The notes beneath the pieces are model-generated. The model had not been told where the DNA came from, ran no database searches, and saw only the letters and a program-made list of their open reading frames with translations. Positions 2,340-43,015 of a stretch of 60,583 nt of DNA are shown piece by piece. Position numbers and translations under genes: made by a program. Position 1 is the stretch's first letter; the number at the start of each line of letters is the position of its first letter. This DNA comes from an uncultured Gammaproteobacteria bacterium (GTDB taxonomy: Bacteria > Pseudomonadota > Gammaproteobacteria > Arenicellales > JAANXG01). The stretch spans positions 1 to 60,583 of the forward strand of contig CAMYKW010000012.1 of the NCBI GenBank assembly GCA_947259175.1, read 5' to 3'.

Positions 2340-3167
2340 GTGTCGAACCGTTCCAGGTGGAAAATTTCAATAATCGTTTCTCTGTGCGCGGTCGTGAGCG
2401 TCGTGCACGCGGATGCGGCTTTGCATTTCGAGTCATTGAATCCGGATAACACCGTGCGCGGGCAGGACCTGAGCGTGTATGCCGGTGGCGGCAAAGTGGC
2501 CATGGTCTCGAGGGAGAATGATTCTCCCCGCTTTACCGTGATCTACGACGACGACAAGAAAGGCTTCACGTTGTTGGATCATGTCAAACGGACTCGATAT
2601 TACGTTGATGTTCCCATGGTCCGGGAGGCGCAGCAGGGCCGGCAGAATATCGAATCGCAAGTGGCGTCGAAAGCGCGTACCGTTCAAAAAAAGTACCGGG
2701 ATGCTTATCGCCGCCGCGCCCTCGAGATGCAGGATTGGATGATGGGCGGCGCTCCGCTGCAGGACATCCGCCATAGAGCGGCGGGCTCCGGCGGCAGTGA
2801 GCCATTCCGCTGTAATGAATTCCATGTGTATCAGGGCGAGTCCCAGTTACGCAGTGTATGTATCGCCGCCTACGCGGATCTCGAACTCGCGTCCGCCGAC
2901 GCCGATCTACTCGATCAAATGCGAGTCGCGGCGTTGGAGATCGCGACGTCGACTCCCCGCTACGCCCAGTTGATCCCGCAGTTGCCGGTGGATTTCGTCG
3001 ACGGCGTTCCGGTGCGGATCGAATATCGCGGAAAGCGCAAGGCGGAAGAGGCCAGGGCGATTCGGCTGAGCAAGATCGATCAATCATCCGCCGACAAGCG
3101 GATTTTTCGCATACCCGAAAGCTACCGGGAGAACGCGCCGGTGCACACGAAAGGGGGGGTATTTTAA
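2340..3167 (+). CDS. Exported protein of unknown function
   Basis: A 275-aa protein starting at GTG. A signal peptide is clear: a basic N-terminus, a hydrophobic stretch at about residues 9-22 and a cleavage site near VHADA. The mature part has a beta-rich N-terminal half, a charged helical stretch around residues 100-140 and two cysteines 18 residues apart (FRCNEF and RSVCIA) that could form a disulphide. I do not recognise the family; the pattern loosely recalls DUF4412-type periplasmic proteins. It follows the GspC-like gene closely. Its last 4 nt overlap the end of the convergent lasso peptidase gene. Confidence 0.65.
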   Translation: MSNRSRWKISIIVSLCAVVSVVHADAALHFESLNPDNTVRGQDLSVYAGGGKVAMVSRENDSPRFTVIYDDDKKGFTLLDHVKRTRYYVDVPMVREAQQGRQNIESQVASKARTVQKKYRDAYRRRALEMQDWMMGGAPLQDIRHRAAGSGGSEPFRCNEFHVYQGESQLRSVCIAAYADLELASADADLLDQMRVAALEIATSTPRYAQLIPQLPVDFVDGVPVRIEYRGKRKAEEARAIRLSKIDQSSADKRIFRIPESYRENAPVHTKGGVF

Positions 3168-3619
3168 GTGTTCAAATACGCGGAGTGCGAGGACAAATCA
3201 ACGATCGTATACGCATCCGCAATGTCCTGCCGGTCGTTCAACACCCGCTGACCCATGGTCAGCCAGGCGTGTCCTTCCATCGTTTCATCCTGTTTGCGAA
3301 TGCCCATGCGCAACCGCACGGGAATATTGCGCCGCCGGTAAAGCCGCAACAGGGCGATGGAGCGGTGCAGGCAGGTGAGGCGGCACGGGTGACGGTTTGC
3401 CGCGATGGCAAAACAGCGGGCAATCCGCTTGATCTTGCCTTCGTCGGCGTTTTCGTCGGCCCCGGATTCGGGGCTCAGCAACAGCCGGTACCAGGTGGAA
3501 AACGGCAGTCCGCGGATCAGCAGAAAAACGTAAAGGGCGGTAAACCAGGACTCGGCGATCAACCACCAGTCGGCGAGCGACAAGCGTGCGGCTTGTCGCA
3601 GCGTGCGGCTAATCGGCAT
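3164..3619 (-). CDS. Lasso peptide leader peptidase B2 (transglutaminase-like)
   Basis: A 151-aa protein matching the lasso B2 family, the cysteine protease that removes the leader peptide from the precursor. The papain/transglutaminase triad is visible: Cys83 in TCLHRSIAL, His117 in EGHAWL and, 12 residues later, Asp129 in VLNDRQ, a spacing like that of McjB. A hydrophobic stretch lies near residues 18-40. Its start overlaps the end of the RRE gene by 11 nt, so the two are translationally coupled. No second B2 gene is present in the window, so this enzyme probably serves both lasso precursors. The cleavage sites it must accept have Ile rather than the usual Thr at position -2. Confidence 0.9.
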   Translation of the reverse strand: MPISRTLRQAARLSLADWWLIAESWFTALYVFLLIRGLPFSTWYRLLLSPESGADENADEGKIKRIARCFAIAANRHPCRLTCLHRSIALLRLYRRRNIPVRLRMGIRKQDETMEGHAWLTMGQRVLNDRQDIADAYTIVDLSSHSAYLNT

Positions 3620-3875
3620 GTTTTATCAGCTCGTGTCTTTCGAGTTCGTCGAGCAGGTCCTGCATGTCCCGGTTCAATGTCTCCGCGCCGACGTCGTACT
3701 CCTGTTGCAATTGACTGAGCACCGCTTCGACGTCGCGGAGTTCCTGCAGTAGTTCGACGATGCGGCAGCCCACATCATTGAGTCCGTAATACTGCCCATT
3801 GTCGAGGTTCAGCACCACCATTTCATCGCCGACCTTTTGCAGCTTAGCTGATGGTGACAGCACGTATGCGGTCAT
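3609..3875 (-). CDS. PqqD-family RRE protein, lasso B1
   Basis: An 88-aa stand-alone RiPP recognition element. It shows the PqqD fold pattern: three beta strands with LNLDNGQYYGLNDVG, then helices ending in DLLDELERHELI. In split lasso systems this B1 protein binds the leader motif Tyr-x-x-Pro-x-Leu/Ile and hands the precursor to B2. Both precursors in the window have this motif. The kinase gene stops at 3876-3878 and this ATG follows with no gap, so the two are tightly coupled. Confidence 0.9.
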   Translation of the reverse strand: MTAYVLSPSAKLQKVGDEMVVLNLDNGQYYGLNDVGCRIVELLQELRDVEAVLSQLQQEYDVGAETLNRDMQDLLDELERHELIKHAD

Positions 3876-4898
3876 TCAATCGACTCCGTCGCCATCGCGA
3901 GGCGGTTCCCGTTGATCACGTAATACGGCGCCGACCACGCAATCCAGGTTGTCAAAACCGCTGTCATAAACCAGCCGTAACACCGGCGTGCGATCGAGCA
4001 CCGAGGCCAGCAACTGCATCCGACCGTGTTGTTCATTGGCGTGTTCGATCATGGTGGACAAGTAGGAATGACGCAACAGGCTGAACAGGCCCTGGTGAGC
4101 CGGCAGCGACTCAACATCGGCGGCCGCGACGGATGTTTGCGCAGAACCGCGCCGCTCACAAACATAGATGGCGCCGATCGGCAAGGATCGGTGTTCGAAG
4201 CGGACGAACTCTGCTTCATTTGCGGCCAACAGACGCTTGGAAAAACCCGCATTCACCAGCGGCAACTGAACTTCGTGTCCAAGAAAATAATCGCAGGCAT
4301 CGGGCTCCAGCCGGAGGTGGGGGAAACTGGGATTGGCCACGGCGACGCCGTGGCGCGTTTCGATCGGGATCACGTCGTCACTCAGCATGGCGTAACCGCT
4401 TTTCAGCCAGGCGGCCGCCAAGGCGCTTTTACCTGTTCCTCGATCCGCCAAAAACAGCAGTGCGCGCCCGTTGACGTTGATTGAACAGCCGTGCAGCACG
4501 GGGATTCCGCGCCGTTCGCACCATAGAGAAAGCACCACGCCCAACAACCTCAGTTCCAGCAGCTCCGGCGGTGTTCCCGGCGCGGCGACGCAATGAATCA
4601 TGTTCCCACAGACATAGAAATCCGCGACGCCGGGAAACTGTAAAACGTCGGTGTCGCCGTCACGGTACAAACGCAGTCGTGATTGTTCATCGCCGTCCCG
4701 GAACGGGCTTTCGTAGACGGGCTGGGATGTTTTCCAGCGCGCCGGCGCCGGCGGCTGGTCCGTCATTTCGAACCTGACATCGGCGCTCACGCCGGAGACC
4801 GCAGACAGGTGCGATAAAGGCAGCGTCGATTCCACGGCGTAGCCGTACAAAACATACGTGACCGCTGAATCCGCGGTGTCCACACGTCTAGCCCGCAT
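3876..4898 (-). CDS. HprK-like kinase of lasso gene set 1
   Basis: A 340-aa P-loop protein related to the kinase domain of HPr kinase/phosphorylase and to lasso precursor kinases. A roughly 130-residue N-terminal domain is followed by LHG (His136), the P-loop ADRGTGKS at residues 151-158 and SDDV at 173-176, matching the catalytic Asp region of HprK. Related enzymes in paeninodin-type clusters phosphorylate a C-terminal Ser of the precursor. The set 1 core ends in Phe, with its only Ser three residues in from the end, so the acceptor site is uncertain. The kinase lies between the phosphoribosyltransferase and B1 genes. A possible SD (GGTGAG) precedes its ATG. Confidence 0.85.
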   Translation of the reverse strand: MRARRVDTADSAVTYVLYGYAVESTLPLSHLSAVSGVSADVRFEMTDQPPAPARWKTSQPVYESPFRDGDEQSRLRLYRDGDTDVLQFPGVADFYVCGNMIHCVAAPGTPPELLELRLLGVVLSLWCERRGIPVLHGCSINVNGRALLFLADRGTGKSALAAAWLKSGYAMLSDDVIPIETRHGVAVANPSFPHLRLEPDACDYFLGHEVQLPLVNAGFSKRLLAANEAEFVRFEHRSLPIGAIYVCERRGSAQTSVAAADVESLPAHQGLFSLLRHSYLSTMIEHANEQHGRMQLLASVLDRTPVLRLVYDSGFDNLDCVVGAVLRDQREPPRDGDGVD

Positions 4899-4961
4899 TT
4901 CTCACCAGGATCCCGGATGCTGGCGCAGGAGTCGTGCGGCTGCGTGCTGTGCCTGGAGCGA

Positions 4962-4983
4962 GACCCATAGCGAGCTATGGGTC
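4962..4983. repeat. 22-bp perfect inverted repeat with 4-nt loop
   Basis: GACCCATAG at 4962-4970 and CTATGGGTC at 4975-4983 are exact reverse complements separated by CGAG. On the coding (minus) strand the hairpin contains the TAG stop of the phosphoribosyltransferase gene and sits 76 nt before the kinase start. It lacks a following T run, so it is not an ordinary terminator. It could be an mRNA processing or stabilising hairpin, or the core of a small inserted repeat. Confidence 0.75.
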
Positions 4984-5889
4984 GAGTGAAGGCCAAGCGC
5001 AGGTGTGCGAGGACCAGCCAGGGCCGGGATAGAACAGTACATCGTAGCTCGCCTCGTATCGCGTGCGCATGTGCTCCACCGCCGCCCGCAGATCGCCGTA
5101 GCCGACCAATGCGCGCCACATGTCGCGGGCGGTATGTTTCAGCGAATAGATGCGGCCGTCACCTTGATGCAACAATTGAATTTCGTCATCGAGGATGCGG
5201 TAAGCAATGTGGTCGCCCAAGCGATAGGCCGGCTTGTCAACGACTTTGGGCGGCAAGTCCAAGGCCGCCCAGTTTTTGAGGCATGCGGACGGCGGCGCCG
5301 TGCGCCAACCCGGCTCTATCTCTCCGGATTCGACATTCCATTGCAGAAAATCCGGTTCCGACCACGGCAGGTAGATGCGTTCCGGAAAACCGATGAAGTA
5401 GCGTTCCGGCAAACGCTCGCGCCAGCGGGTCTGCCAGGCGCCGTATTGCGATGGGTCGTCGAACATCTCCGGCGCTCGATCGGTGAGCTCGAAGGCGCTG
5501 ACGCACTTGGACACGCGTTGGTCCTGCGCCAGGATGCCGCGCAGCGTTTCGGGCACGGCGAACAGGAAGCCGAGGATTAAGCGTTCGAACGGCAAGTCGG
5601 CAAGAAATCTTCGCACCCGGGCGCCGGAGATGCAGCAGTCATCGACAATCACCGCCACCGTCGCCCTGGGGTCGTGTCGCAGGTTCTCGGCGCCGAGGTT
5701 AAGGAAGTATGAGACGAAACCGAGGACAAACAGACCGCCGCGGGGGATGGCGAGAAACTGGTGGTCTTGAAGCTGTTTCCGTCCGCAAACGGATTCGAGT
5801 TTTTCCGCCAGGCGCCGCGCCGCCTGTTCGGCTTCGTGGTGAGATACCGCCTTGGTTGTGAAATTAGGACGGTCGATAGCTGCAGCAAT
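4975..5889 (-). CDS. Phosphoribosyltransferase fused to a PqqD/RRE domain
   Basis: About 304 aa if read from the codon after the precursor stop. The N-terminal half is a type I phosphoribosyltransferase: LAIPRGG at about residues 46-52 and the PRPP loop VIVDDCCISG at about 80-89. The C-terminal half, about residues 220-285, is PqqD-like (YRLGDHIAYRIL, then GRIYSLKHTARDMW), an RRE that would bind a lasso leader. A modification of the peptide using PRPP or a related reaction is inferred, not shown. The start is odd: no ATG, GTG or TTG precedes the conserved PRGG motif. The first codon after the precursor's TAG is ATT, and there is no SD. The GTG at 5658 would delete the PRGG region. The C-terminus is also odd and ends in the 4962-4983 palindrome. 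Another frame carries a helix-like tail to a TGA at 4902. Confidence 0.75.
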   Translation of the reverse strand: MAAAIDRPNFTTKAVSHHEAEQAARRLAEKLESVCGRKQLQDHQFLAIPRGGLFVLGFVSYFLNLGAENLRHDPRATVAVIVDDCCISGARVRRFLADLPFERLILGFLFAVPETLRGILAQDQRVSKCVSAFELTDRAPEMFDDPSQYGAWQTRWRERLPERYFIGFPERIYLPWSEPDFLQWNVESGEIEPGWRTAPPSACLKNWAALDLPPKVVDKPAYRLGDHIAYRILDDEIQLLHQGDGRIYSLKHTARDMWRALVGYGDLRAAVEHMRTRYEASYDVLFYPGPGWSSHTCAWPSLDP

Positions 5890-6057
5890 CTAGAAGAAGA
5901 ACGAACCGCCGGCGCCGTCGCCTACGTTGCCTGCAGCGCCGTTGATGATGTCGGACACGCGGCCATGTGCAACGATCTCGGGTTTGCGGTAGGCTAATTT
6001 CTTGTTTTTTTGGTTGGGTTTCCGCTTTTGGTTTATGTTCTCACGATTTCGCTTCAT
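5890..6057 (-). CDS. Lasso peptide precursor A1 (55 aa)
   Basis: A short gene between cyclase 1 and the phosphoribosyltransferase. The leader is Lys/Asn-rich and ends with the lasso motif YRKPEIVAHGRVSDIIN (Tyr23, Pro26, Ile28, Gly32). The predicted core is GAAGNVGDGAGGSFFF, 16 residues: Gly1 would join the side chain of Asp8 in an 8-residue macrolactam, leaving an 8-residue tail whose bulky Phe residues could act as plugs. The start is an ATG with an ideal SD, GGAGG at 6065-6069, 7 nt upstream, and a TATAAT box at 6087-6092. Ring and core limits are inferred from the family. Position -2 is Ile38 where most leaders have Thr. The stop is a single TAG in the same frame as the next gene. Confidence 0.88.
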   Translation of the reverse strand: MKRNRENINQKRKPNQKNKKLAYRKPEIVAHGRVSDIINGAAGNVGDGAGGSFFF

Positions 6058-6094: not shown

Positions 6095-7993
6095 TCAGTC
6101 TGCATGCGAAAAGTAGGTGTCCCGCAGCCACGCCTCCAGACTCAGGGAGGGCAGAAATTTCTCGATTTCCTGATCCTGATTCCGCCCGACACAAGCCAAA
6201 TGCTCTTCGAAGACGGCGGCATCGATGAATCCCAAAGCCGCAGCGTGCGGATTGCTCGCCAGCGCCGCGATACGGCGGCGTTCCTTATCGAAACCGCGGA
6301 ACACCAGAGCTCTTTGATCACCTTGTCCCTTGAGCCGCGAACAAATAGCGGCAGGCAGGATGTCACGCAGGCCTTTCCGCAAAATCACTCGATTGATGCC
6401 GCCGTCGCACGCCAGATGTTGCGGCATGCCCATCGCAAATTCTACGATGCGGCGGTCCAGAAACGGCAGCCGCATTTCGACGCCTGCATGCGCACAGGCG
6501 GTGTCCAGATTGGCGAGCCGGGCGAGGTCGAAAAACTTGCGCACGTAGCGATGAATGATGCGGCCCGACAGCGAGGCATGTCGGGCTTCGAAGAAGCGCG
6601 GATCGATTGTGTGCTGGGTCGGCGCCGAAGACGCATGCCGGGGCTTCAGCCACGGCACCGAGTCGTTGCTGAAGCCGGCCGCCGGCTGCGACCGGCTCCG
6701 GTACCGTTCCATCACGCGCTGAGGCAGGAAGGCGCGTAAAAACAAACCCAGCCAGCTCACGTTGCGCGGCGCCTTGTAGTGACGGGCTTCCTGAAACACC
6801 CGCGAAGCGGGAACCCCCCGCAGCGCCTCGGGGTGACAATAGATCGTATCGCCCAGGGAACAGTTCGCCATGTCACCGGTGACGACAATGCGGCAACCGT
6901 CCGCGGCCGCGCGGTGCAACAGCGCCGAAGTGTTGGCGCGGGTGACGTAGACTTCGGGCTCATCCAACGGGAAGCCGTCGTCACCGCCGAATTCGCGAAA
7001 CGCCCAGTGATCGTCGCTGATTACGTGCCGGCTGTCGAATCCGGGGCAGACTTTTTCCACTAGCGCGATGTATTCCCGTTCGTCCGCAAGCGGAGTGTCG
7101 TCAAACACCGAGGCATACAATTTGATATCGGCGTCTAACCGATCCCGCGACACCAGGTCATGGGCGGCACAGGCGAGGGACGAGGAGTCCAATCCACCGC
7201 TGAGCCATATACCGACCGGGGTGTCACTCCTGAATTGTTCCCGGATGACAGTATCGAAAAGACCGCGAAACGCCTCCACCCACTCGGTGTCGTTGGCGAA
7301 GGATTCCGGTGATGATGAACCCAGCGCATAATACAGTTCCTGTTTGAGTCGTCCGTTTTCCCAAATGAGTTGATGGGCCGGCGGCAGACGCTGGATGCCG
7401 GCGTACACCGTCTCGGATACCAGCGGCCTGTAGGACTGGCGCAGGAACGCCTCGATCACGGGCCGGTTGAGTTCCGGCCGCGACGCCAGGCCCCGGACGA
7501 TGGCGCCGATGCTGGTGGCCAGCATCAGCGTGTCTTGGTTAACCGTAAAAAACAACTGTCTCATACCCATCGGGTCGCGGGCGGCGAACAGGCGCCGATT
7601 CGGCTGATCCCATAGCGCGAACGTGAAATCACCGATCAACCTGGCGACGCCCTGTTGCCCCCATCTCCGATAGGCGGCGAGGATGATCTCGGCGTCGGTG
7701 GATTGCGTGTTGGCCAGTAATCCCGAGCGGCGAAGTTGGGGGATGAGTTCGGCGCGGTTATCGATGCGCGCGTCAGCCACCAGATACAGCCGGCCGTCGT
7801 CGCTGGTGACCGGTTGCCGTTCGCGCCGGGACTCAGGGGTGGTGTGCAGGGCGAGGTGGGCGAGGGCGGCGTGTCCATCGTGCCAGCAGGCGACCCCGTC
7901 GGGACCGCGATACGCCTGCGCCCGGGTCATGCGCTCCAGCCTGTCCTGGATTGGTTGTGGGTTTGTCTGGGCGATGCCTGCGATGCCGGCCAT
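6095..7993 (-). CDS. Lasso peptide cyclase C1 (asparagine synthetase-like)
   Basis: A 632-aa AsnB-like protein. Lasso cyclases adenylate the ring Asp/Glu side chain and close the macrolactam with the core's N-terminal amine. Residues 1-200 form a glutamine-hydrolase-like domain (YRGPDG at about 28-33), but the catalytic Cys expected after Met1 is Ala, as is usual in lasso cyclases, which need no ammonia. The synthetase domain has the ATP-pyrophosphate loop SGGLDSSS at 265-272 and a C-terminal LPFLDRRIVEFA motif. I start at the ATG at 7993, which gives the family-typical MAGIAGI N-terminus; upstream in-frame codons lack homology. It stops 37 nt before the precursor. Confidence 0.9.
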   Translation of the reverse strand: MAGIAGIAQTNPQPIQDRLERMTRAQAYRGPDGVACWHDGHAALAHLALHTTPESRRERQPVTSDDGRLYLVADARIDNRAELIPQLRRSGLLANTQSTDAEIILAAYRRWGQQGVARLIGDFTFALWDQPNRRLFAARDPMGMRQLFFTVNQDTLMLATSIGAIVRGLASRPELNRPVIEAFLRQSYRPLVSETVYAGIQRLPPAHQLIWENGRLKQELYYALGSSSPESFANDTEWVEAFRGLFDTVIREQFRSDTPVGIWLSGGLDSSSLACAAHDLVSRDRLDADIKLYASVFDDTPLADEREYIALVEKVCPGFDSRHVISDDHWAFREFGGDDGFPLDEPEVYVTRANTSALLHRAAADGCRIVVTGDMANCSLGDTIYCHPEALRGVPASRVFQEARHYKAPRNVSWLGLFLRAFLPQRVMERYRSRSQPAAGFSNDSVPWLKPRHASSAPTQHTIDPRFFEARHASLSGRIIHRYVRKFFDLARLANLDTACAHAGVEMRLPFLDRRIVEFAMGMPQHLACDGGINRVILRKGLRDILPAAICSRLKGQGDQRALVFRGFDKERRRIAALASNPHAAALGFIDAAVFEEHLACVGRNQDQEIEKFLPSLSLEAWLRDTYFSHAD

Positions 7994-8140
7994 GGGAATC
8001 GGATGAGGTTTTGCGATGTTGGGCGGCGTGAACCCGCAATCTAAATCGGATTGAATTTTCGCATGGATTGATGCACGAGCTCTAGAATGCTGCAGCGAGT
8101 CGCGCGGGGAAAGCGTCGTTGCATCAGACGAATTCCTGTT

Positions 8141-8160
8141 GGAGCGGGTCTTAACCGCGA
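8141..8160 (+). repeat. REP-like hairpin, diverged copy
   Basis: GGAGCGGGTCTTAACCGCGA. It shares the GGAGCGG...CCGCGA frame with the copies at 176-239 and 22473-22492, but the stem has one mismatch. It lies upstream of cyclase 1, in the gap between that gene and the end of the large repeat-protein gene. Confidence 0.5.
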
Positions 8161-8216
8161 TAGAAACGATCGCCGAAGGCATTCATTGCCGACTACCGCA
8201 AAGCGGAACTGCATCG

Positions 8217-8288: not shown

Positions 8289-11200
8289 TTACCAGCCCGA
8301 CCAGCCGCCGTAGCGGCTATATCTGCTGCTGAATTTACTGCCGCTCTTGTGATCGTTGCTGGCGCCATCACCGCTGCTGTCGTCGTCGCCGCTGCTGGCG
8401 TCGTCCGGCCCCGGGCCGCAGAAGGCGTTGGGATAGTAGTCGCTGCTGGCGCCGTCGCGGCTGCTGTCGTCGTCGTCGCTGCTGGCGTCATCGTAACGAT
8501 GATAGTAGCTGGTCCGGCTGGCGCCGTCGCCGCTGCTGTCGTCGCCGTCACTGCTATAGTCGTCATAGTCGTGTGGACACGCGCAGGGATTGCGTTCACC
8601 GCTGGCGCCGTCGCCGCTGCTGTCGTCGCCATCGCTGCTGTCGTCGTCGGACTTGCCGTCACCGCCGGACTTGCTGCCTTCGGAGCGGCTGTCGTGATCG
8701 TCCTTGCTGGAGCTGGACTTGCTGCCGGACTCGCTGCTGGACTTGCTGCCGCTGTCCTCTTCGGACTTGCTGGCGCCGTCGCCGCTGCTGTCGTCGCCGT
8801 CGCTGCTGTCGTCGTCATGCTTGACGACACACTCCACCGGACACAGCGGACCGCCGTGCAGGCTTTCTCCGGCGATGACCTCGAAATGACCGAACACCAG
8901 CCCCGGCCCGATGGGTTGCGAGCAACTGGTGTGGATCTTGGTGTCGAGTTTCCAGTAATAGGAACTCTTAATGTAGACCAGGATCTCGGTGCCCAGGGTG
9001 CCTTTCCAGGTGCCCCAGAAGGTGAAGCTGTCACCGGGCTGCACGATGCCGTCGAAAACCACATCGCCGTCCTTCTTCTGCTTTACCTTAATGCGGGCAT
9101 TCACCTTGTCGCCGAGGTATTTGAGCGTCAGCGTGGTGACCTTGCCCTCGCACTTAGCGCAGGGCCGATCGGGCACGAAGTAACCGAAGTCGAAGGTGTC
9201 GTCGTCGGTGACCACGGTGCGGCTGATCTCATCACCGCCGGTGGTGTTGGCGAAGTCCTCCAGCTGGCCGGTGGGGGCATAACCGAAGTTGATGCCGTTC
9301 ACGTCGGCATTGGTCAACGCGACCGGCAGCCCGTTCACCGCAGGGTCGGTGGTCGGCAGCAAGTCGGCCAGATTCCCGTCGACATCGGTCACCGCCAGCC
9401 GGTAGTCACCCGGGGGCAGACCGGCAAAACTGAAATCACCGTTGGCGTCGGTGGTGGTCTGTGCGATGACGAAACCGGTGTCGTCGAGCAACACCACGGT
9501 GACGCCGGGGATACCGAGTTCGCCGCCGTCCTGGGACCGGTTGCGGTTGTCATCGGCCCACACCCGGTCGGCAATCGAGTACAGCGGGTCGCTGCGGTAG
9601 CCGAAGTCGACGTTGAGATTGATCTCGCTCAATCCCAAGGGAACCGGCGCCGGGTCGACGCCTCCCGACATCGTCAAGCCCTCCAAGGCACCGCCGGGAC
9701 CGAAGTTGCTGGAAGCGATGTCCACGGTGTAATTGCCCGCGGGCAGTCCGGCGAACAGGTAGTAGCCACCCGCCGTTGAGGTCGTGGCGATCGGTACACC
9801 GCCGCTGAGCAGGTTGACGACGACGTTGCTGATACCGGACTCGCCGGGATCCTGTAACGCGTTTCCGTTGCTGTCGAACCACACGAAGTCGCCGATGGCC
9901 CCCTGACCCGCGGTGCCGTAGCCAAAGTCAAGACCGTCAAAGGTCTCGCCGGCGTTGGTGATGGTCACCGGCGGCGAGCTTGGGTTGGTGCTGCCGGGAG
10001 TAAGCGACAGTCCCGCCGGCAGGGTGCTTTCCACGACGTTGGTGTAATAGCTGCCCGGCAGCAGGTTGTTGAAGCTGTACAAGCCGTTGCCGTCGGTGCT
10101 GGTAGCGGCGAGCACGGCGTCGGTGGCGGCGTCACGCAGCACTACGCTGGCATTGGGCAGGCCCGGCTCCCCGGGATCCTGGACGCCGTCGTTGTTCAGA
10201 TCCAGCCACACCCGGTCGCCGACCCGGCCCAGCGGATCGCTGGACAGGTTGCGGTCGCACACCTCGACGGTGTAGTCGCCCGGCAGTACCGTAAACGCGT
10301 AACTGCCGTTGGTGTCGGTGGGCGTGCGGGTGATCAAATTGCCGGCGCCGTCGCGCAGGTTCACGCATACGCCCGGTATCCCCGGTTCGCCGGGATCCTG
10401 CACCCCGTCGCCATTGGTGTCGCTGAACACGGTGTCACCGATGACGATCAGGTTTGACGTGTAGCCGAAGTCGTAAGTGAGAATATTGACGTCGACCACG
10501 GTGTCGGTCTGCGAGGTGGCCGTGGTGGCACTGTAGTCGGTCAGCTGCCCCTGCAGGTTGTAGCCGAAGTTGTTGCCGGACACATCGATGTCTTCGATCT
10601 CCACCGGATGACCACAACAACCGGCCTGTGTGGTCGGCAGATGACCGTCCAGCACGCCCTCGAAGTCGGTCACCACCAGGCGGTACGCATCGTGGATCAA
10701 GCCGTCGAAACTGAATACGCCGTTGGCGTCCGAGGTGGTGGAGGCCAGATAGTCGCCGTCCTCGTTCAACAGGCTTACGGTGACGCCGGCAAAGCCGACT
10801 TCACCGCCGTCGCGCACGCCGTCGCGGTCGCTGTCCAGCCACACCGAATCGGTGAGCGTATGCGGGTCGGGATTGAAGTAGCCGAAGTCCTTGTCCAATA
10901 TGACTGTGCTGGTACCCGCGGGGATCACAATGGTAAACGGATCGGTGGGCTCGGGTATCGGCGCAAGGGTCGGCGAGAGGGACAATCCGGCGAGCACGCC
11001 GCGGACGTCGGTGACGTCCACCTGATAGGTGCCCGCCGCTACGCCGGTGAACAGATACTTGCCGTTGCCGCTGGTGGTTGTGGTGGACACCACCGTGTCG
11101 GCATCGGGCCCGCTGCCGCCGGGAAGACCGTCGGCGCCGAGGTCAATCAAATCGAGCGTCACGCCGATGATGCCCGGTTCGCCGGGATCCTGTACACCGT

Positions 11201-12878
11201 TGTCGTTGACGTCATTCCATACCCGGTCGCCGACCGACGCGGTGTCGACAGCGTCGGTATAACCGAAATCCAGATCGTCGAACACCTCGGTCGCGGTGAT
11301 GCTGCGGGTGGCGCTGGGGCTGGTGCCGGTGGACAGCGTCAGGCCGGCGGGGATGTCGTTACTGTCGATGACTCGCACGTAGTAGGTGCCCGGAGCCAGG
11401 TCGGTGAAGCGGTAGCGGCCGTTGACGTTGGTGGTCACGGTGGCCACGAACACGTCGTCATAGAGCGGGTCGGTGGGGTCGGGGTCCGGTACACCATTGG
11501 GGCCGACCAGCAGCAGGTTGACGGTAACGTTGCCCAGGCCGGGCTCGCCGGGGTCCTGAACGCCGTTGTCATTGACGTCGTGCCACAGCAGGTCGCCGAT
11601 CTTGCCGCCGGGGGTCGGCGGGGTGCTGTTGGCCGGGTCCACCTCAATCGTATATTGACCGGTGTCGGTTTCGAAGTCGTAGCTGCCGTTGGGATCGGTC
11701 GTGGTCTGCTCGATCAAGCCGCCCAGCGCGCCGCGCAGGTTGAGCACCACGCCGGGGATGCCGGGTTCGCCGGGATCCTGGACCCCGTCGCCGTTCAAGT
11801 CCTCCCACACAAAGTCTCCGACCAGAAATGGATCGCAATTGACAACGCACACGCGGATGAACAGGTCGCCGTCCACCAGCAGGCTGTACACGTTGTTGGC
11901 GTCGACGCCGAACCAGTGCCAGCGATAGGATCCAGCCTCTACCGGCGTGACGTTGAAATCATTATTTACCGAGTTACCAGAGGGTTGGGTCTCGAATACC
12001 AGCAAGTCACCGAGCGGATTGAACAGCTCGTAGCGGATGTCCGGGGAGATCGTCTTCGGGTCATCCGGCGCGCCGTCGTCCTCGGGAAAGGCGCCATCGG
12101 GGGAGCCGACCCAATCGGCGTCGTTGTCGGTGAAGTCCGCGCCAAGCGGAATTGCATTGGGCGCAACATAGAAAAAGTCCCAGTCGCCGGTGTAAAAGTT
12201 GCCCGGGGTGTTGAAGTCCGGATCGTATATCGGATTCACCGGTACGCCGACGACGCTTGCGTTCTGGAACACGCTGATCTGTGCCTGACTGGTCTCGCTG
12301 TCGCTTTTGACGCGCACCATGAAACCGTTGCCGAACTGATAGCCGGGCATCGCCCCGACATACTTCACGTTGACGCGGTAAAAATAAACCCCAGACGGCG
12401 ACTGGGCCGCCGGGTCGACCGCCCGTCCGGTAGTGGCGCCGTCGCCGATCCAGTTGGACCACGTCGAGTCGGCGAAGGCGGCGTCGGTTGTGGTCAGCGC
12501 GGCGATCTCGGCCGTGCTCTGATCCTTGAGGGGATCGGCGGCAATGGTGTATTCGAAATTCCCCGGCGTTGCACCCGGGCCGCCGCTCACATCGTAGTTT
12601 TTCGAGGCATCGAGAAGCTCGCTGTTGTCGCCGTCGAACACCTGTACGTGAAACTGGGTGGCGTCGGGGGGCAGCGCGAGATAGATCACCGGTTCGATGA
12701 GCGGAGTGCTGAAGAACGGCCCCGATATGATCAGCATCTTGCCGTCTTCGTTGTCCGCCGACGGCCAACCCGCCCAATCCAGGTGACCCGCCTGCGCAGG
12801 CGCGGACACGAGAAAGGAAATCGAAACCAGGAACGCGGCACATCCGCCGCGGATGAATTTTGCAAGCATCTCAGTCAT
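8289..12878 (-). CDS. Large secreted protein with eight SdrD-like B repeats
   Basis: A 1529-aa protein. The signal peptide is residues 1-30, ending APAQA. An N-terminal domain of about 340 residues precedes eight SdrD-B-like (prealbumin-fold) repeats, each beginning VGDxVW or similar followed by a Ca-loop-like DxNxDGxQDPGEPG. They start near 11830, 11600, 11240, 10860, 10445, 10225, 9900 and 9575. After about 9180 comes a Cys-containing beta domain (CAKCEGK, later TSCSQP; DUF7467-like). A Ser/Asp/Gly-rich tail contains repeats of SSDGDDSSGDGAS. No LPXTG or PEP-CTERM signal is visible, and the protein ends GGWSGW. A surface adhesin or matrix role is inferred from the domains and from the cyclic-di-GMP riboswitch-like leader. 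I start at the ATG at 12878, after the leader RNA; an ATG at 12869 is also possible. Confidence 0.85.
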   Translation of the reverse strand: MTEMLAKFIRGGCAAFLVSISFLVSAPAQAGHLDWAGWPSADNEDGKMLIISGPFFSTPLIEPVIYLALPPDATQFHVQVFDGDNSELLDASKNYDVSGGPGATPGNFEYTIAADPLKDQSTAEIAALTTTDAAFADSTWSNWIGDGATTGRAVDPAAQSPSGVYFYRVNVKYVGAMPGYQFGNGFMVRVKSDSETSQAQISVFQNASVVGVPVNPIYDPDFNTPGNFYTGDWDFFYVAPNAIPLGADFTDNDADWVGSPDGAFPEDDGAPDDPKTISPDIRYELFNPLGDLLVFETQPSGNSVNNDFNVTPVEAGSYRWHWFGVDANNVYSLLVDGDLFIRVCVVNCDPFLVGDFVWEDLNGDGVQDPGEPGIPGVVLNLRGALGGLIEQTTTDPNGSYDFETDTGQYTIEVDPANSTPPTPGGKIGDLLWHDVNDNGVQDPGEPGLGNVTVNLLLVGPNGVPDPDPTDPLYDDVFVATVTTNVNGRYRFTDLAPGTYYVRVIDSNDIPAGLTLSTGTSPSATRSITATEVFDDLDFGYTDAVDTASVGDRVWNDVNDNGVQDPGEPGIIGVTLDLIDLGADGLPGGSGPDADTVVSTTTTSGNGKYLFTGVAAGTYQVDVTDVRGVLAGLSLSPTLAPIPEPTDPFTIVIPAGTSTVILDKDFGYFNPDPHTLTDSVWLDSDRDGVRDGGEVGFAGVTVSLLNEDGDYLASTTSDANGVFSFDGLIHDAYRLVVTDFEGVLDGHLPTTQAGCCGHPVEIEDIDVSGNNFGYNLQGQLTDYSATTATSQTDTVVDVNILTYDFGYTSNLIVIGDTVFSDTNGDGVQDPGEPGIPGVCVNLRDGAGNLITRTPTDTNGSYAFTVLPGDYTVEVCDRNLSSDPLGRVGDRVWLDLNNDGVQDPGEPGLPNASVVLRDAATDAVLAATSTDGNGLYSFNNLLPGSYYTNVVESTLPAGLSLTPGSTNPSSPPVTITNAGETFDGLDFGYGTAGQGAIGDFVWFDSNGNALQDPGESGISNVVVNLLSGGVPIATTSTAGGYYLFAGLPAGNYTVDIASSNFGPGGALEGLTMSGGVDPAPVPLGLSEINLNVDFGYRSDPLYSIADRVWADDNRNRSQDGGELGIPGVTVVLLDDTGFVIAQTTTDANGDFSFAGLPPGDYRLAVTDVDGNLADLLPTTDPAVNGLPVALTNADVNGINFGYAPTGQLEDFANTTGGDEISRTVVTDDDTFDFGYFVPDRPCAKCEGKVTTLTLKYLGDKVNARIKVKQKKDGDVVFDGIVQPGDSFTFWGTWKGTLGTEILVYIKSSYYWKLDTKIHTSCSQPIGPGLVFGHFEVIAGESLHGGPLCPVECVVKHDDDSSDGDDSSGDGASKSEEDSGSKSSSESGSKSSSSKDDHDSRSEGSKSGGDGKSDDDSSDGDDSSGDGASGERNPCACPHDYDDYSSDGDDSSGDGASRTSYYHRYDDASSDDDDSSRDGASSDYYPNAFCGPGPDDASSGDDDSSGDGASNDHKSGSKFSSRYSRYGGWSGW
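8358..8815 (-). repeat. Imperfect repeats encoding SSDGDDSSGDGAS
   Basis: About five units of roughly 39 bp are scattered through the 3' end of the large secreted protein gene, near 8360, 8445, 8520, 8605 and 8775. They are separated by variable Ser/Lys/Tyr-rich segments. The biased codons (GAC, GGC, AGC) keep the opposite strand open, which produces long false ORFs there. Confidence 0.7.
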
Positions 12879-12920
12879 TACGCACACCCCATCTGTGAAC
12901 ACACTCCGTACCACCTTCTC

Positions 12921-13012
12921 GTCCCACTTGGCGGCCCGGCTGTCTGCGAAAATGCGTAAGACCCGCGGCTTTCCGTCCCTGTCTTGCGACAGGTTTGGCT
13001 TTGGCAAGTGAC
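12921..13012 (-). promoter_or_regulatory. Class I cyclic-di-GMP (GEMM-I) riboswitch, predicted
   Basis: The minus strand between about 13012 and 12921 matches the GEMM-I aptamer. The outer stem is CACTTG (13010-13005) with CAAGTG (12930-12925). Inside it are the conserved AAACC, then a TGTC-GCAA-GACA hairpin with a GNRA tetraloop. GGGACGGAAAGCC follows (consensus GGGACGCAAAGCC), then a second stem with GTCT paired to AGAC. The base aligned to Vc2 G20 is G, which favours cyclic-di-GMP over cGAMP. The one change in the conserved block is matched by a G-to-C change in its pairing partner (21-46 pair). The aptamer ends 43 nt before the ATG at 12878; no clear terminator lies between, so translational control is more likely. 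Confidence 0.82.
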
Positions 13013-13295: not shown

Positions 13296-15149
13296 GTGAG
13301 CGGCTTCGCCTTATGTTTTCACCGCGACGCGCGTCCCGCCACGGCCGCCACGGTCGCCGAGATGCTTGCGGCGATGGATTATCTCGGCCGTGACGGCCGG
13401 CGTATCGAGACGCGGGGATCCGCGGTGCTGGGTCATCTGCACTTCTGGACCACCCCGGAGGAGGTCGGTGAACGGCAACCGCTGGTGCATGCGCAGGCCG
13501 CCCTGACCTTGGTGTGGGATGGGCGCCTGGACAACCGGCGCGAAGTGTATCGACAGCTCGGCGGCGATCTGCCGCCGCTGGCGCAGTTGTCCGACGCGCA
13601 GCTGGTGCTGCAAGCCTGGGCGCAATACGGCCCCCGCTGCGTACCGCGGTTGCTGGGGCCGTTTGCGCTGGCGGTATACGACCATGCGCAGCGCGAGTTG
13701 GTGCTGGCCTGCGATCCCATGGGCGGACGCAATATTTATTACGCGCTCTCGGGCCGCGTGTTGATTGCGGCCTCGGAACCGGGCGGGGTGTTGGCGCATC
13801 CGGAGCTCGAGGTGGCGCCCGACCCGGGGCCGCTGGCGATGTATTTTGCCTACAGCGAGCGCAGCGGCGCGGACACATTTTTTGCCGGGGTCAGGGTGCT
13901 GCTCCCGGCGCAAGTGCTGCGCGTGATCCCGGACCGGGTGCGCTACGAATCATTCTGGCCGTTCGATCCCGCCGCGCGGCTGCGCTACCGCAACGAAGAT
14001 GAATACGCCGAGCAGTTCCACGAGTTGCTGAGCGACAGCGTCGCATGCCGTTTGCGCACCCAGCATGAGCCCGCGGTGGCGATGAGCGGCGGCCTCGATT
14101 CCGCGCCGATTGCCGCACTCGCCGCACGCCATCTGAGCGCACGGGGGCGCCGGCTGATCGCCGCATCGTGGGTGTTCGATCGGTTTTCCGCGTGCGACGA
14201 GCGCGAGTATCTCGAGCCGATGTATCGCGCCCACGGGCTCACGCCGCTGCAGGTGAATTGTGACGCGGCATGGCCGTTGAGCGACTTCAAGTCGTGGCCG
14301 ATTCACCCGTTTGCGCCGTTTCAGAATCCGTACCGGCGCTTCCACCAGGAACTCTACCAAGCGCTCCAGCAACGCGGCGTGGGCGTCGCCTTGACCGGGC
14401 TGATGGGAGATCATCTGTATCGCGGCAGCGAGCGATGGCTTGCGGATCTGCTGCGCGAGGGCCGCCTGGGGAACGCCTTCGCCGAGGGCCTGTGGTTCGC
14501 CGGCCAATACGGTTGGCGCGCGCTGTTGCGGCGGGGATTGGTGCGCGGTCTGGTTCCGCACCGCGTGTATCGTCGGCTGCGGCCGCGGGCGGTCCCCCCC
14601 TGGTTGACGCCGTTCGCCCGGCGCCATCTCAACCGCGGCGATGCCTGGCCCGGGGATTCGCCGCGCGCGCGGCGCCCGGAGCAATACTTCGGTGTATTGG
14701 CGCTGGTTGCCGGCGTGGGATTCCAGGAGCGGTTTTTTTGTAACCCCTACGGCATCGAGTTGCGTTACCCGTTCCGCGACCGGCGGTTGGTGGAATTCAT
14801 GCTCAAGATTCCCACCGATCAATTGGTTTCCCGAGGCATCACCCGCCCCATCATCCGCCGCGGCTTGCGCGAGGTGGTGCCTGAGGCGATCCTGTCACGG
14901 CGGCACAAGACGTCCTTCGGACCGGTGTATGCCTATGGCATGTGTGAACAAGAGTTAACCCGGGTGAATCAGTGGCTGGATCCCGGTAATAATGCCTGGT
15001 CGCGTTACGTGGATCCCGGCTGGCTGGCCGCGCATCGCGAATGCCGGGGGGAAAACGCTTATATCGCGTGGCTGTGCGTTTCACTGGAAATGTGGAGCAG
15101 GTATACTCCCGCCGGCTTCGCGTTTCGCGACACCGCCGGTCCATGTTGA
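13296..15149 (+). CDS. Lasso peptide cyclase C2 (asparagine synthetase-like)
   Basis: A 617-aa second lasso cyclase. It starts at GTG with MSGFALCF, so Ser replaces the glutaminase Cys after Met1. The N-terminal glutaminase-like domain runs to about residue 210. The synthetase domain shows SGGLDSAP at 264-271 and a C-terminal LRYPFRDRRLVEFML motif. It is clearly diverged from cyclase 1, so duplication, if any, is old. The precursor gene follows after 31 nt. No good SD precedes the GTG; a later start would cut into the conserved N-terminus. Confidence 0.9.
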   Translation: MSGFALCFHRDARPATAATVAEMLAAMDYLGRDGRRIETRGSAVLGHLHFWTTPEEVGERQPLVHAQAALTLVWDGRLDNRREVYRQLGGDLPPLAQLSDAQLVLQAWAQYGPRCVPRLLGPFALAVYDHAQRELVLACDPMGGRNIYYALSGRVLIAASEPGGVLAHPELEVAPDPGPLAMYFAYSERSGADTFFAGVRVLLPAQVLRVIPDRVRYESFWPFDPAARLRYRNEDEYAEQFHELLSDSVACRLRTQHEPAVAMSGGLDSAPIAALAARHLSARGRRLIAASWVFDRFSACDEREYLEPMYRAHGLTPLQVNCDAAWPLSDFKSWPIHPFAPFQNPYRRFHQELYQALQQRGVGVALTGLMGDHLYRGSERWLADLLREGRLGNAFAEGLWFAGQYGWRALLRRGLVRGLVPHRVYRRLRPRAVPPWLTPFARRHLNRGDAWPGDSPRARRPEQYFGVLALVAGVGFQERFFCNPYGIELRYPFRDRRLVEFMLKIPTDQLVSRGITRPIIRRGLREVVPEAILSRRHKTSFGPVYAYGMCEQELTRVNQWLDPGNNAWSRYVDPGWLAAHRECRGENAYIAWLCVSLEMWSRYTPAGFAFRDTAGPC

Positions 15150-15165
15150 GCTGATAAATAATTAC

Positions 15166-15171
15166 TATAAT
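15166..15171 (+). promoter_or_regulatory. Consensus -10 box (TATAAT) next to precursor A2
   Basis: A perfect TATAAT in a short AT-rich island, 9 nt before the precursor ATG. If used, transcription would begin only 2-3 nt before the ATG, giving a nearly leaderless mRNA; no SD is visible. The -35 region is poor. The same arrangement of a TATAAT between cyclase and precursor is seen in set 1. Confidence 0.45.
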
Positions 15172-15180
15172 TAGCATTAG

Positions 15181-15363
15181 ATGATAAAGTCAGTCGAGCA
15201 CACTCGCAGCCACCGGCATCCGCGACGCGCCAGCGACCGGGCGCCGGCCAAAAAACCCTACCAGCCGCCGCGCCTGACGGCGCATGGCGACGTCCGCGAC
15301 CTCATCTTGGGGCCTTCGCTCGGTACCGAGGAAAGCGCCGGGGACGTAGTCTTTAAGGTCTAG
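15181..15363 (+). CDS. Lasso peptide precursor A2 (60 aa)
   Basis: The leader is basic and His-rich and carries the motif YQPPRLTAHGDVRDLIL (Tyr27, Pro30, Leu32, Gly36). It aligns closely with precursor A1 (shared AHG, V, D, I and the residue before the core). The predicted core is GPSLGTEESAGDVVFKV, 17 residues: Gly1 with Glu8 would make an 8-residue ring, and Glu7 is the alternative acceptor. Position -2 is Ile rather than Thr. It lies between cyclase 2 and kinase 2. Core limits and ring size are inferred from family rules. Confidence 0.87.
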   Translation: MIKSVEHTRSHRHPRRASDRAPAKKPYQPPRLTAHGDVRDLILGPSLGTEESAGDVVFKV

Positions 15364-15387
15364 CGATCCCCCGCGACCTGCCGGCTC

Positions 15388-16293
15388 ATGCCCAATGTAT
15401 TCGTCCGCTTAGCGCCGTTCCGGCAGGAAACGGAATCGGCGGTGCGCGCCTACCACATCGCCGGATGCCGCTTTTGGATCGACGCCGATGTGCCGGTGCT
15501 CGAGGCGTTTCGCGAACGCCGCCTGCCGACACCGCGGTTCGCCGCCCGGGTGCTGCCCCGGGCGCCGGTCGACGCCGCCCGGGGCGCTGGCGAACGGCGG
15601 GTTTCGGGTTGGGTCGGCGGCCGGCGCGAAGCGGTGCGCTGCCGACAGCTCGCGGACGGTTATGTCATCCAGGTCAAGTCGGTGCGGTTTTTTGTGCGCG
15701 ACGACGGCAAGTGGATCGAGCGCCTGGATCCCGGCCCGAGCGATGCGGACACGACGCACCTATTCCTCGGCCCGGTGCTGGTGCTGGCGTTGGCGTTGCA
15801 GGGGCGCTGGTGCCTGCACGGCGGCGCGGTGATCCGCGAAGGATCGGCGCTGGTGTTCGTCGGTGAATCCGGCTTGGGCAAATCGACCATTGCCGCGGAG
15901 TTGGCCGGAACCCGCGCGGCGATGCGGCGCCTCGCCGACGATGTCGTTCCGGTGGCCATGAACGGCCGCTTGCACAGCCTGCCGCCGTTTCCGCAGCCCA
16001 AGCTCAGCGATGCGCAGCAATACGCGGAGAGCGCCCCGGTCGGCGTGGCGCACATCTACGTGTTGCGGCCCGGAACCGACGAAACCCCGGTGGCCCACGG
16101 TCTATCCGCCGCTGAGGCGGCGTTGGCGGTCGCTCGGCACACCGTATCGGCGCAGCTATTCCCACAAGCCCTGTTAGCGGGACATCTTGCATTCTGCGCG
16201 CGGGTCGCGGAAACCACCCGTGTCACGGCGTTGGAGTACCCGCATACCCGGGAGTCCCTGGACACGCTGACCGAGATGATCGCGCACAGTTGA
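15388..16293 (+). CDS. HprK-like kinase of lasso gene set 2
   Basis: A 301-aa relative of the set 1 kinase. LHG (His144), P-loop GESGLGKS at 159-166 and ADDV at 183-186 correspond to the HprK catalytic core. The N-terminal about 130 residues are poorly conserved between the two. It starts 24 nt after the precursor stop, with no clear SD, and its stop overlaps the next ATG by one base. The substrate is probably the neighbouring precursor, whose core has Ser3, Thr6 and Ser9. The C-terminal residue is Val, unlike the Ser used in paeninodin. Confidence 0.82.
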   Translation: MPNVFVRLAPFRQETESAVRAYHIAGCRFWIDADVPVLEAFRERRLPTPRFAARVLPRAPVDAARGAGERRVSGWVGGRREAVRCRQLADGYVIQVKSVRFFVRDDGKWIERLDPGPSDADTTHLFLGPVLVLALALQGRWCLHGGAVIREGSALVFVGESGLGKSTIAAELAGTRAAMRRLADDVVPVAMNGRLHSLPPFPQPKLSDAQQYAESAPVGVAHIYVLRPGTDETPVAHGLSAAEAALAVARHTVSAQLFPQALLAGHLAFCARVAETTRVTALEYPHTRESLDTLTEMIAHS

Positions 16294-41718: not shown

Positions 41719-41866
41719 CAATTCCAAGTCAATACGCCGGCCTCGCAACGGCCATTCCCGCAGCTGCGGCGTGCATCGTGAAGCTCAACGAACTTTTAAC
41801 CACCGCCGGCGCGCTCATGATTCGCAGTCGCCCGGCAACAGTAACGGCGGGGCACCGTGACGGGAA

Positions 41867-43015
41867 ATGCGGGCTAAACCGCAAGTACTGAAGATCGGTG
41901 TTGTCGCCGGTGAGGCGTCCGGCGACATACTCGGCGCGCGACTGATTGACGTGATAAAAACGCGGCAGCCCGACGCCTCGATCAGCGGCATATGCGGACC
42001 TCGGATGACGGCGCTTGGAGCAGTGAGCATGTTCCCGATGGACAGTATCTCGGTGATGGGTCTGGATGATCTGGCCGCCAGATTGCTGAATATCATGCGT
42101 ACGCGCCGGCAGTTGGCGGAACACTTTATCAGCAATCCTCCGGACGTGTTTGTCGGTATTGATGTGCCCGATTTTAATCTTGGCCTCGAGGTCAAGCTGC
42201 GCCAGCGGGGCATCCGTACCGTCCATTACGTGAGTCCGACGGTTTGGGCGTGGCGGGGTTACCGAATACACAAAATCCGACGCGCCGTGAATCATATGTT
42301 GACGTTGTTTCCATTTGAAGCCGAGTACTATCGCAAGCACTCGGTTCCGGTTACCTTCGTCGGACATCCGATTGCAGATGAAATCGACCCGAACGTGGAT
42401 GTAACCGCGTTGCGCAACGGCTTCGGGGTGCAAGCCGATCAGTTAGTGGCGTTGCTGCCGGGCAGCCGAAAAAGTGAACTGAACGCCCTCGGATCATTGT
42501 TCATCGACGTTGCCAAGAACCTGTGTGAGCAGCGTCGCGATATTGAGTTTGTTGCGCCGTTCGTCGACGATGACACCAAGTCCTATTTCGGCAAGCTACT
42601 ACAGGACAGCGGTTATAATCTTCCCATCAAAGTGGTCACGGGCAGATCACGGCAGGCGATCGCCGCTAGCGACGTCGCGCTGCTGGCGTCCGGTACCGCC
42701 GCTCTGGAAGCCGCACTGTTCGCCAAGCCAATGGTAGTGGCCTACAAGGTTTCGTGGTTAACCGGCGTGCTGGTGAAGCTGTTCGCTCACGTTCGATATT
42801 TTTCCATGCCCAACAATCTTCTTGCACAACCGGTAGTGCCTGAATTGTTGCAGCGTGATGCAACAACGCAGAATCTGACCGCTGCTGTGGCCGAATTTCT
42901 GGACGATCCTGCGTTACGCAGCGATGTCTCAAGGCGCTTGGCCACCATCTACGATACGCTGAAGATGGGCGCCAGCGAACGCGCAGCGGACGTCATTTTG
43001 GGTCTCCCCGGATGA
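41867..43015 (+). CDS. lpxB: Lipid A disaccharide synthase
   Basis: A 382-aa GT19 enzyme joining two acylated glucosamines. VVAGEASGDILGARLI, VSPTVWAWRGYRIHKI and LLPGSRKSEL are family motifs. It is separated from lpxA by 148 nt with no gene seen; it overlaps rnhB by 4 nt (ATGA). Confidence 0.97.
   Translation: MRAKPQVLKIGVVAGEASGDILGARLIDVIKTRQPDASISGICGPRMTALGAVSMFPMDSISVMGLDDLAARLLNIMRTRRQLAEHFISNPPDVFVGIDVPDFNLGLEVKLRQRGIRTVHYVSPTVWAWRGYRIHKIRRAVNHMLTLFPFEAEYYRKHSVPVTFVGHPIADEIDPNVDVTALRNGFGVQADQLVALLPGSRKSELNALGSLFIDVAKNLCEQRRDIEFVAPFVDDDTKSYFGKLLQDSGYNLPIKVVTGRSRQAIAASDVALLASGTAALEAALFAKPMVVAYKVSWLTGVLVKLFAHVRYFSMPNNLLAQPVVPELLQRDATTQNLTAAVAEFLDDPALRSDVSRRLATIYDTLKMGASERAADVILGLPG

Follow-up and report, generated by a model that had tools for sequence, protein, structure and literature searches.

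A PRT-RRE frame and its neighbours in a lasso peptide operon

The window, by which we mean the whole stretch of 60,583 nucleotides that was analysed, carries a lasso peptide operon on its minus strand. Family models identify a lasso cyclase, C1, in the open frame 6095..8182 (-). Since these matches set in only near residue 64, translation probably starts near 7993. C1 matches NF033535 best (334 bits, under the cut-off of 525 for this model; 322 bits for C2, the cyclase of a second lasso set). Next comes the lasso precursor A1 (5890..6057 (-)), recognised from its sequence, with a leader running YRKPEI...DIIN and the predicted core GAAGNVGDGAGGSFFF, in which G1 and D8 would close the ring. Pfam and NCBIfam scans of A1 gave no family match. 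The core register of A1, like that of all precursors discussed below, places the leader Tyr at -17 and was adopted from the part of PMC10368454 available to us. Further along lie an HPr-kinase-like gene, K (3876..4898 (-)), whose matches stay below curated cut-offs, the stand-alone RRE protein B1 (3609..3875 (-)) with a complete PqqD domain (64.9 bits), and the leader peptidase B2 (3164..3619 (-); NF033537, 80.3 bits with a cut-off of 33). Precursor, B1, B2 and cyclase, the set by which we recognise a lasso operon, are all present.

Between A1 and gene K lies a frame of 304 codons plus a stop when read from stop to stop (5889-4975 (-)). The TAG stop of A1 immediately abuts this frame and the two are in phase. 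The single frame spans the core of a type-I phosphoribosyltransferase (PRT) with both signature loops, followed by a PqqD-like RiPP recognition element (RRE). We take AIPRGG (5734..5751 (-)) to be the PPi-loop motif of a type-I PRT and VDDCCISGAR (5617..5646 (-)) to be the PRPP-binding loop. In an alignment of 16 rows, made up of the window copy and 15 relatives and leaving out the split gene of genome G914, AIPRGG was found in 15 rows and TIPRGG in one, and DDC..[ST]GxR was found in all 16. Residues 239-281 of the frame (5047..5175 (-)) match positions 4-46 of the 67 positions of the Pfam PqqD profile (PF05402) with 26.1 bits, above the cut-off of 23.4. Pribosyltran (15.4 bits, cut-off 26.3) and PRTase-CE (15.6 bits, cut-off 27) stay under their cut-offs. 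The coding remnant proper, comprising the PRT core, the linker and the strands and helices 1-2 of the PqqD/RRE domain, covers 5033..5889 (-). Its GC content at the three codon positions (0.66/0.44/0.73) is close to that of C1 (0.64/0.48/0.72). An artefact of a high-GC frame was ruled out, since the product shares 42% identity with that of an intact gene occupying the corresponding slot in another lasso operon.

The frame is damaged at both ends. Its first in-frame ATG, GTG or TTG, at 5658, falls between the two signature loops, after AIPRGG and a little ahead of the PRPP loop, and some 80 N-terminal residues of the relatives, conserved positions among them, are absent. A profile of the N-terminal part, searched across the window, found nothing (best E 1.1), which rules out that the lost N-terminus is sited elsewhere in the window. 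At the other end the PqqD match breaks off at profile position 46 of 67, compared with position 66 or 67 for the PRT-RRE in 15 of 15 genomes holding relatives. The missing part is the last helix (helix 3), which corresponds to residues 384-400 of the model of an intact member, L100, and the window copy does not possess a complete PqqD-like RRE. In RREs the leader cleft is formed by alpha3 and beta3, according to the available part of PMC12710340. The window copy keeps 32 of the 41 columns that are invariant across the other 15 rows, where each other row keeps at least 32 of 34; for columns conserved at 80% it keeps 54 of 92 (59%), compared with 82-98% in the other rows. Folded alone, the window protein reached a mean pLDDT of 41.2.

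What stands in place of RRE helix 3 is sequence of a dispersed repeat. Genome-wide matches and a comparison of boundaries delimit a truncated copy of 145 bp at 4888..5032 (-). The genome holds 62 matches to the repeat including the window copy, 17 of which comprise only the 22-25-base ends. When the 227-aa ORF starting at 5658 was used as query against its own genome, 19 further matches turned up, confined to residues 199-227 and belonging to the repeat. Seven distinct full copies of 247-271 bp end in 22-bp terminal inverted repeats (CTAGCCCGCATTTCTCACCAGG) that differ by 0-4 bases. The right 145 bp is alike among copies and the left part is variable, and in form the repeat is MITE-like. The window carries the right 145 bp only, with one 22-base end; a 15-base near match to the repeat end at 41862-41876 lies far off. 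The idea that the repeat is the end of a larger unit containing the PRT-RRE gene was ruled out on account of this single end. The repeat supplies the final codons of the PRT-RRE frame, its stop (4975-4977) and the ATG of the kinase gene (4898); an alternative GTG start of gene K at 4883 lies outside it.

On this sequence evidence the window copy looks like a damaged, decaying PRT-RRE gene. Its decay appears to be recent or incomplete, as the frame has no internal stop and its codon positions are still coding-like. Sequencing or assembly error may be the source of some defects. The first-pass annotation had described a PRT-RRE fusion in a lasso operon, and the fusion itself is confirmed, with both loops and a PqqD match; the N-terminus and RRE helix 3 of such an enzyme are missing.

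Several other features of the window were noted. A second lasso set at 13296-16293 (+) comprises cyclase C2, precursor A2 and another kinase-like ORF, so called for its resemblance. A2 (15181-15363) ends in ...DLILGPSLGTEESAGDVVFKV and shares with BsfA an Ile at -2 and a Ser as third core residue. The second set has no B1 or B2 of its own, and the genome search recovered a single B2. Between the two cyclases lies a large repeat-containing ORF (8289-13007 (-)); in five genomes of the same genus, too, long ORFs adjoin the cyclase of the lasso locus.

Intact relatives and the fold of the PRT domain

In a sample of 398 genomes of the phylum there was one strong relative (E 3.4e-36; next best match E 0.0014), a protein of 407 aa with 42% identity over residues 3-192 of the 201-aa query. 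It is encoded by genome G837, Litchfieldella qijiaojingensis of the Halomonadaceae, in an operon that reads NTP_transf_5 protein, ABC transporter, cyclase, precursor, PRT-RRE, kinase-like gene, B2 and B1. Within this family of salt-loving bacteria 15 of 250 genomes carry the gene, 14 as a single frame and one (G914) as a split gene. A further copy is found on a contig of a spirochaete MAG; because the cyclase on that contig groups with those of Halomonadaceae, gene transfer or mis-binning is possible. The relatives are 401-426 aa long in 15 copies and split in one. As a separate observation, the split locus (L116:8965-10175 (-)) is a second damaged PRT-RRE, made of two abutting frames and without an adjacent kinase.

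Searches elsewhere recovered no further member with a PRT part. Neither the 109 genomes of the window's order nor a 369-genome sample of its class yielded a relative with a PRT; the former gave two further matches to PqqD only, and in the latter the profile matches elsewhere begin at position 295 or beyond, at the PqqD end. No PRT-bearing relative was detected on the plasmids searched or on the genome contigs searched with the single window sequence. Within the order to which G837 belongs, 105 genomes were searched with a profile; only G837 had the PRT, and G1132 gave a PqqD-only match. A scan of viral contigs returned one stand-alone 144-aa PRT.

All 15 intact relatives share one layout, in which a conserved N-terminal domain of some 85 residues (with a shorter start in L102) is followed by a type-I PRT, a linker holding a WCxP-like motif, and an RRE. 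Eight relatives were scanned for PqqD and all eight scored above the cut-off (36.8-43.2 bits), in agreement with the earlier reading of the C-terminal domain as an RRE. The PRT models of Pfam stayed under cut-off in all nine members scanned, i.e. the window copy and eight relatives; the best score among the eight was 24.8 bits with a cut-off of 27, and two of them (L112, L114) had no Pfam PRT match at E up to 1.

A lasso cyclase homologue lies close by in 16 of 16 PRT-RRE loci, with at most precursor and kinase intervening. Five PRT-linked cyclases were scanned and all matched the lasso cyclase model best (276-306 bits, below the cut-off of 525). A kinase-like gene adjoins PRT-RRE in 12 of the 16 loci, the exceptions being L108, L109, L111 and L116; these kinases fell below cut-off with the HprK-related model in 4 of 4 scanned, and none of three exceeded the cut-off of the Pfam HPr kinase model. 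NTP_transf_5 protein homologues were present in 9 of 16 loci. Every one of the 15 PRT-RRE genomes also encodes a B2, a single one in 14, and a separate short PqqD protein, showing that PRT-RRE does not replace B1. B2 was found in 38 of the 250 family genomes, all 15 PRT-RRE genomes among them (hypergeometric 3e-14, uncorrected for kinship). The expectation that relatives would be found near RiPP genes was thus borne out.

The fold of the PRT part was assessed on an AlphaFold2 model of the intact member L100, built from a four-row alignment. The mean pLDDT of 48.5 marks low confidence, with better values in residues 101-220 (ten-residue means of 48-82), where the order of strands and helices, as read by eye, is PRT-like. 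The PRPP loop DDC..[ST]GxR comes after a predicted strand (residues 162-167). Among 50 Foldseek matches listed for this model, 45 are named PRTs or PyrR and the remaining five carry a title on phosphonate inhibitors; E-values in that list were 0.014-0.091, none under 0.001. In VIA-align the best match of the low-confidence model was HGXPRT (Z 12.1, 113 residues, rmsd 3.0), and 47 of the 50 matches listed are named PRTs, UMP synthase, PurF or PyrR, leaving three whose titles name no PRT (5vog, 8w7d, 1wd5). By sequence, query P0001 had no match among PDB chains at E up to 10. The model suggests a type-I PRT-like fold for the middle part of PRT-RRE, which we file only as PRT-like because the Pfam PRT scores are under their cut-offs. 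Such a fold is no proof of transferase chemistry, since the VIA-align matches listed include the regulator PyrR and a ppGpp-bound protein.

Cyclase clade and precursor class

We compared 42 cyclases in a tree that included the 16 PRT-linked sequences and 17 PRT-less ones from the same bacterial family. All 16 PRT-linked cyclases form one clade (100/100) and the 17 PRT-less cyclases form another group; three of the latter come from genomes that also hold a PRT-linked cyclase. The window cyclase falls outside the PRT-linked group, with at most 29% identity to any other sequence in the tree; it sits on a long branch and its placement is unsure.

In the PRT-linked precursors Thr occupies position -2, and the cores take the form X1-G2-x-[TS]4-x-[PG]6-x-x-D9, in 18 of 18 cases. 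For comparison, 25 PRT-less cyclase loci were inspected (17 of these cyclases had entered the tree); 14 had recognisable precursors and 11 had none, giving 20 recognised precursors, some of them nearly or wholly alike. Thr or Ser at core position 4 occurs in 18 of 18 PRT-linked precursors but in only 1 of these 20. A 'GS' tail was dismissed as a mark of the PRT class: it is found in 18 of 18 PRT-linked precursors but also in 14 of 20 PRT-less ones. Near their PRT-linked cyclases, L109, L111 and L116 also contain three small precursor-like ORFs of a different type; they end in PGS[TV], are unlike the main precursor class and were left out of the precursor count.

Given its distribution, we consider the hydroxyl of the core-4 Thr/Ser the best candidate for an acceptor. 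The association may also reflect descent, since Thr/Ser4 follows one cyclase clade that is compared with others. By analogy, Thr/Ser4 may instead mark a kinase site: BsfK of Bradymonas phosphorylates Ser3, which lies in the ring (PMC10368454, available part).

A1 differs from the PRT-linked precursors in having Ile at -2 and in lacking Thr/Ser4. Its Ile(-2) leader is of the rare type that the accessible text of PMC10368454 describes for Bradymonadales. The predicted A1 core contains a single Ser/Thr, the Ser of GGSFFF, which the neighbouring kinase might target. The window copy is homologous to the PRT-RRE family over the PRT and part of the RRE. Having neither the N-terminal domain, nor the clade-specific cyclase, nor Thr/Ser4, it is classed here as a truncated relative and not as a family member.

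Five genomes of the same genus have a lasso locus with an NTP_transf_5 homologue, a kinase, a cyclase and a large ORF as in the window; B2 was recognised in all five genomes, and B1 together with B2 in four of the five regions. The window PRT had no match in these five genomes. Given the unlike cyclase and precursor beside it and the lack of a match in these genomes, the most likely history is that the window lineage took over the PRT-RRE of another lasso system, or retained one that has disappeared from its kin, and that this gene is now decaying.

Predicted reaction, alternatives and related systems

It is reasonable to predict from these sequences a reaction that depends on PRPP and is directed at the precursor. 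The RRE of an intact member, we infer, most probably docks on the YxxP leader of the cognate precursor class, whereupon the PRT domain would move 5-phosphoribosyl from PRPP, with PPi as leaving group, to a nucleophile of the core. The best candidate for this nucleophile is the ring Thr/Ser hydroxyl at core position 4; as a kinase gene adjoins PRT-RRE, a kinase-made phosphate may be the acceptor instead. Transfer would precede leader removal, and phosphorylation, methylation, hydroxylation and epimerization of lasso peptides act on linear precursors (PMC9266682, in the part available). The window copy has lost both its N-terminal domain and its start codon, and the repeat, together with an associated deletion, has taken the place of RRE helix 3, so that the reaction probably no longer takes place in this strain. 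We therefore keep from the first-pass annotation the proposal of a precursor-targeted PRPP enzyme for the class, where sequence supports it, and drop it for the window copy, which has no early start, no N-terminal domain and no helix 3.

We hold, with slightly better than even confidence, that PRT-RRE is a leader-guided, PRPP-dependent tailoring family and that the window copy is decaying beside a non-cognate cyclase. More tentative, and in our judgement somewhat more apt to be wrong than right, is the specific proposal that leader-guided PRTs carry out O-phosphoribosylation of ring Thr/Ser4, or of its kinase-made phosphate, in a lasso class with a nine-residue ring from X1 to D9. This would constitute a new class of RiPP tailoring enzyme and a first for PRPP in lasso peptide modification.

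PRT-RRE might alternatively modify no peptide and act, as PyrR does, as a PRPP- or nucleotide-sensing or scaffold part whose RRE hands the precursor to its own cyclase. The separate clade of PRT-linked cyclases, the additional PRT-less cyclase in some genomes, the single B2 in 14 of 15 genomes and the presence of PyrR in the list of PRT folds would suit such a role. However, both loops are kept family-wide, which a mere scaffold would not need, and a separate short PqqD protein is available in each of the 15 genomes, and we regard this account as unlikely.

Doubtful to a greater degree is the possibility that the window copy still works. Translation would have to begin at a rare start codon, ATT 5889, which follows the A1 stop without a gap and in phase with it, or to reach the frame by read-through of the TAG, with a dispensable N-terminal domain and with B1 binding the leader in trans. 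The open frame of 304 codons with its coding-like composition, the retention of both PRT loops, the phase shared by A1 and the frame across a single TAG and the complete B1 in the operon are what one would expect of a working gene. Yet agreement in phase has a one-in-three chance, the first ATG, GTG or TTG comes only after the AIPRGG loop, the N-terminal domain of 15 intact relatives was not found in the window, and repeat sequence occupies the place of RRE helix 3. Finally, the PRT could use PRPP to phosphoribosylate a small molecule or amine, which would then be attached to the peptide by kinase K or the NTP_transf_5 protein, a route that would fit the adjacent kinase-like gene in 12 of 16 loci, the NTP_transf_5 homologue in 9 of 16 and the hexose added to phosphoserine by a nucleotidyltransferase-like protein in pseudomycoidin (PMC9266682, PMC8498205, available parts), but which we consider very improbable given that the RRE on the PRT itself points to the peptide as direct substrate and that 4 of 16 loci (L108, L109, L111, L116) are without an adjacent kinase.

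Our preferred reading, a leader-guided PRPP-dependent tailoring family, has partial counterparts. Type-I PRTs such as HGPRT/XGPRT, OPRT and PurF share the core fold and the two signature loops. Their usual loop reads TGxT/S, whereas that of the PRT-RRE family reads [ST]GxR, and the family further differs in its extra N-terminal domain, its WCxP-like linker, its RRE and its sub-cut-off Pfam scores. The pseudomycoidin pathway (PsmK, PsmN) is similarly a lasso operon with a kinase and a sugar-adding transferase; PsmN, however, is annotated as a nucleotidyltransferase and places hexoses onto a C-terminal phosphoserine, and the parts of PMC9266682 and PMC8498205 available to us make no mention of an RRE on it. 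The present family, in contrast, is a PRT-RRE fusion with a candidate site in the ring. The Bsf pathway of Bradymonas (BsfK, BsfB1, BsfB2) also has a kinase-containing lasso operon, and the Ile at -2 of its leader is common to A1 and A2 of the window; it differs in that the available part of PMC10368454 mentions no PRT and assigns the RRE function to B1. RRE-glycosyltransferase and other fusions found with RRE-Finder likewise join an RRE to a predicted transferase (PMC7470986, as far as available).

The first-pass annotation had supposed that no PRPP-using modification of a lasso peptide was described, and none was met in the literature searched. The word 'phosphoribosyl' is absent from the main texts of two RRE papers (PMC7470986, PMC12710340) and two lasso reviews (PMC9266682, PMC8498205). 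Papers in which lasso peptides or PqqD occur together with phosphoribosyl terms are, to judge by their titles, genome or unrelated studies. No publication joining lasso peptide, phosphoribosyltransferase and PqqD was found in a search that took in few subscription papers, nor did the searches return one joining RiPP recognition element with phosphoribosyltransferase, joining Litchfieldella with lasso peptide, or naming PRTase-CE. PRT-RRE is thus apparently an undescribed predicted tailoring enzyme of lasso operons.

If intact members do phosphoribosylate a peptide, lasso chemistry would gain a sugar-phosphate decoration drawn from a cell metabolite, and the built-in leader-targeting domain would be useful in engineering and in finding related products. 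For genome mining the family marks a precursor class with G2, [TS]4 and D9 in 18 of 18 cases. The window copy, in turn, suggests how such a tailoring step can disappear, with a repeat severing the targeting domain and the lasso core genes still left as open frames.
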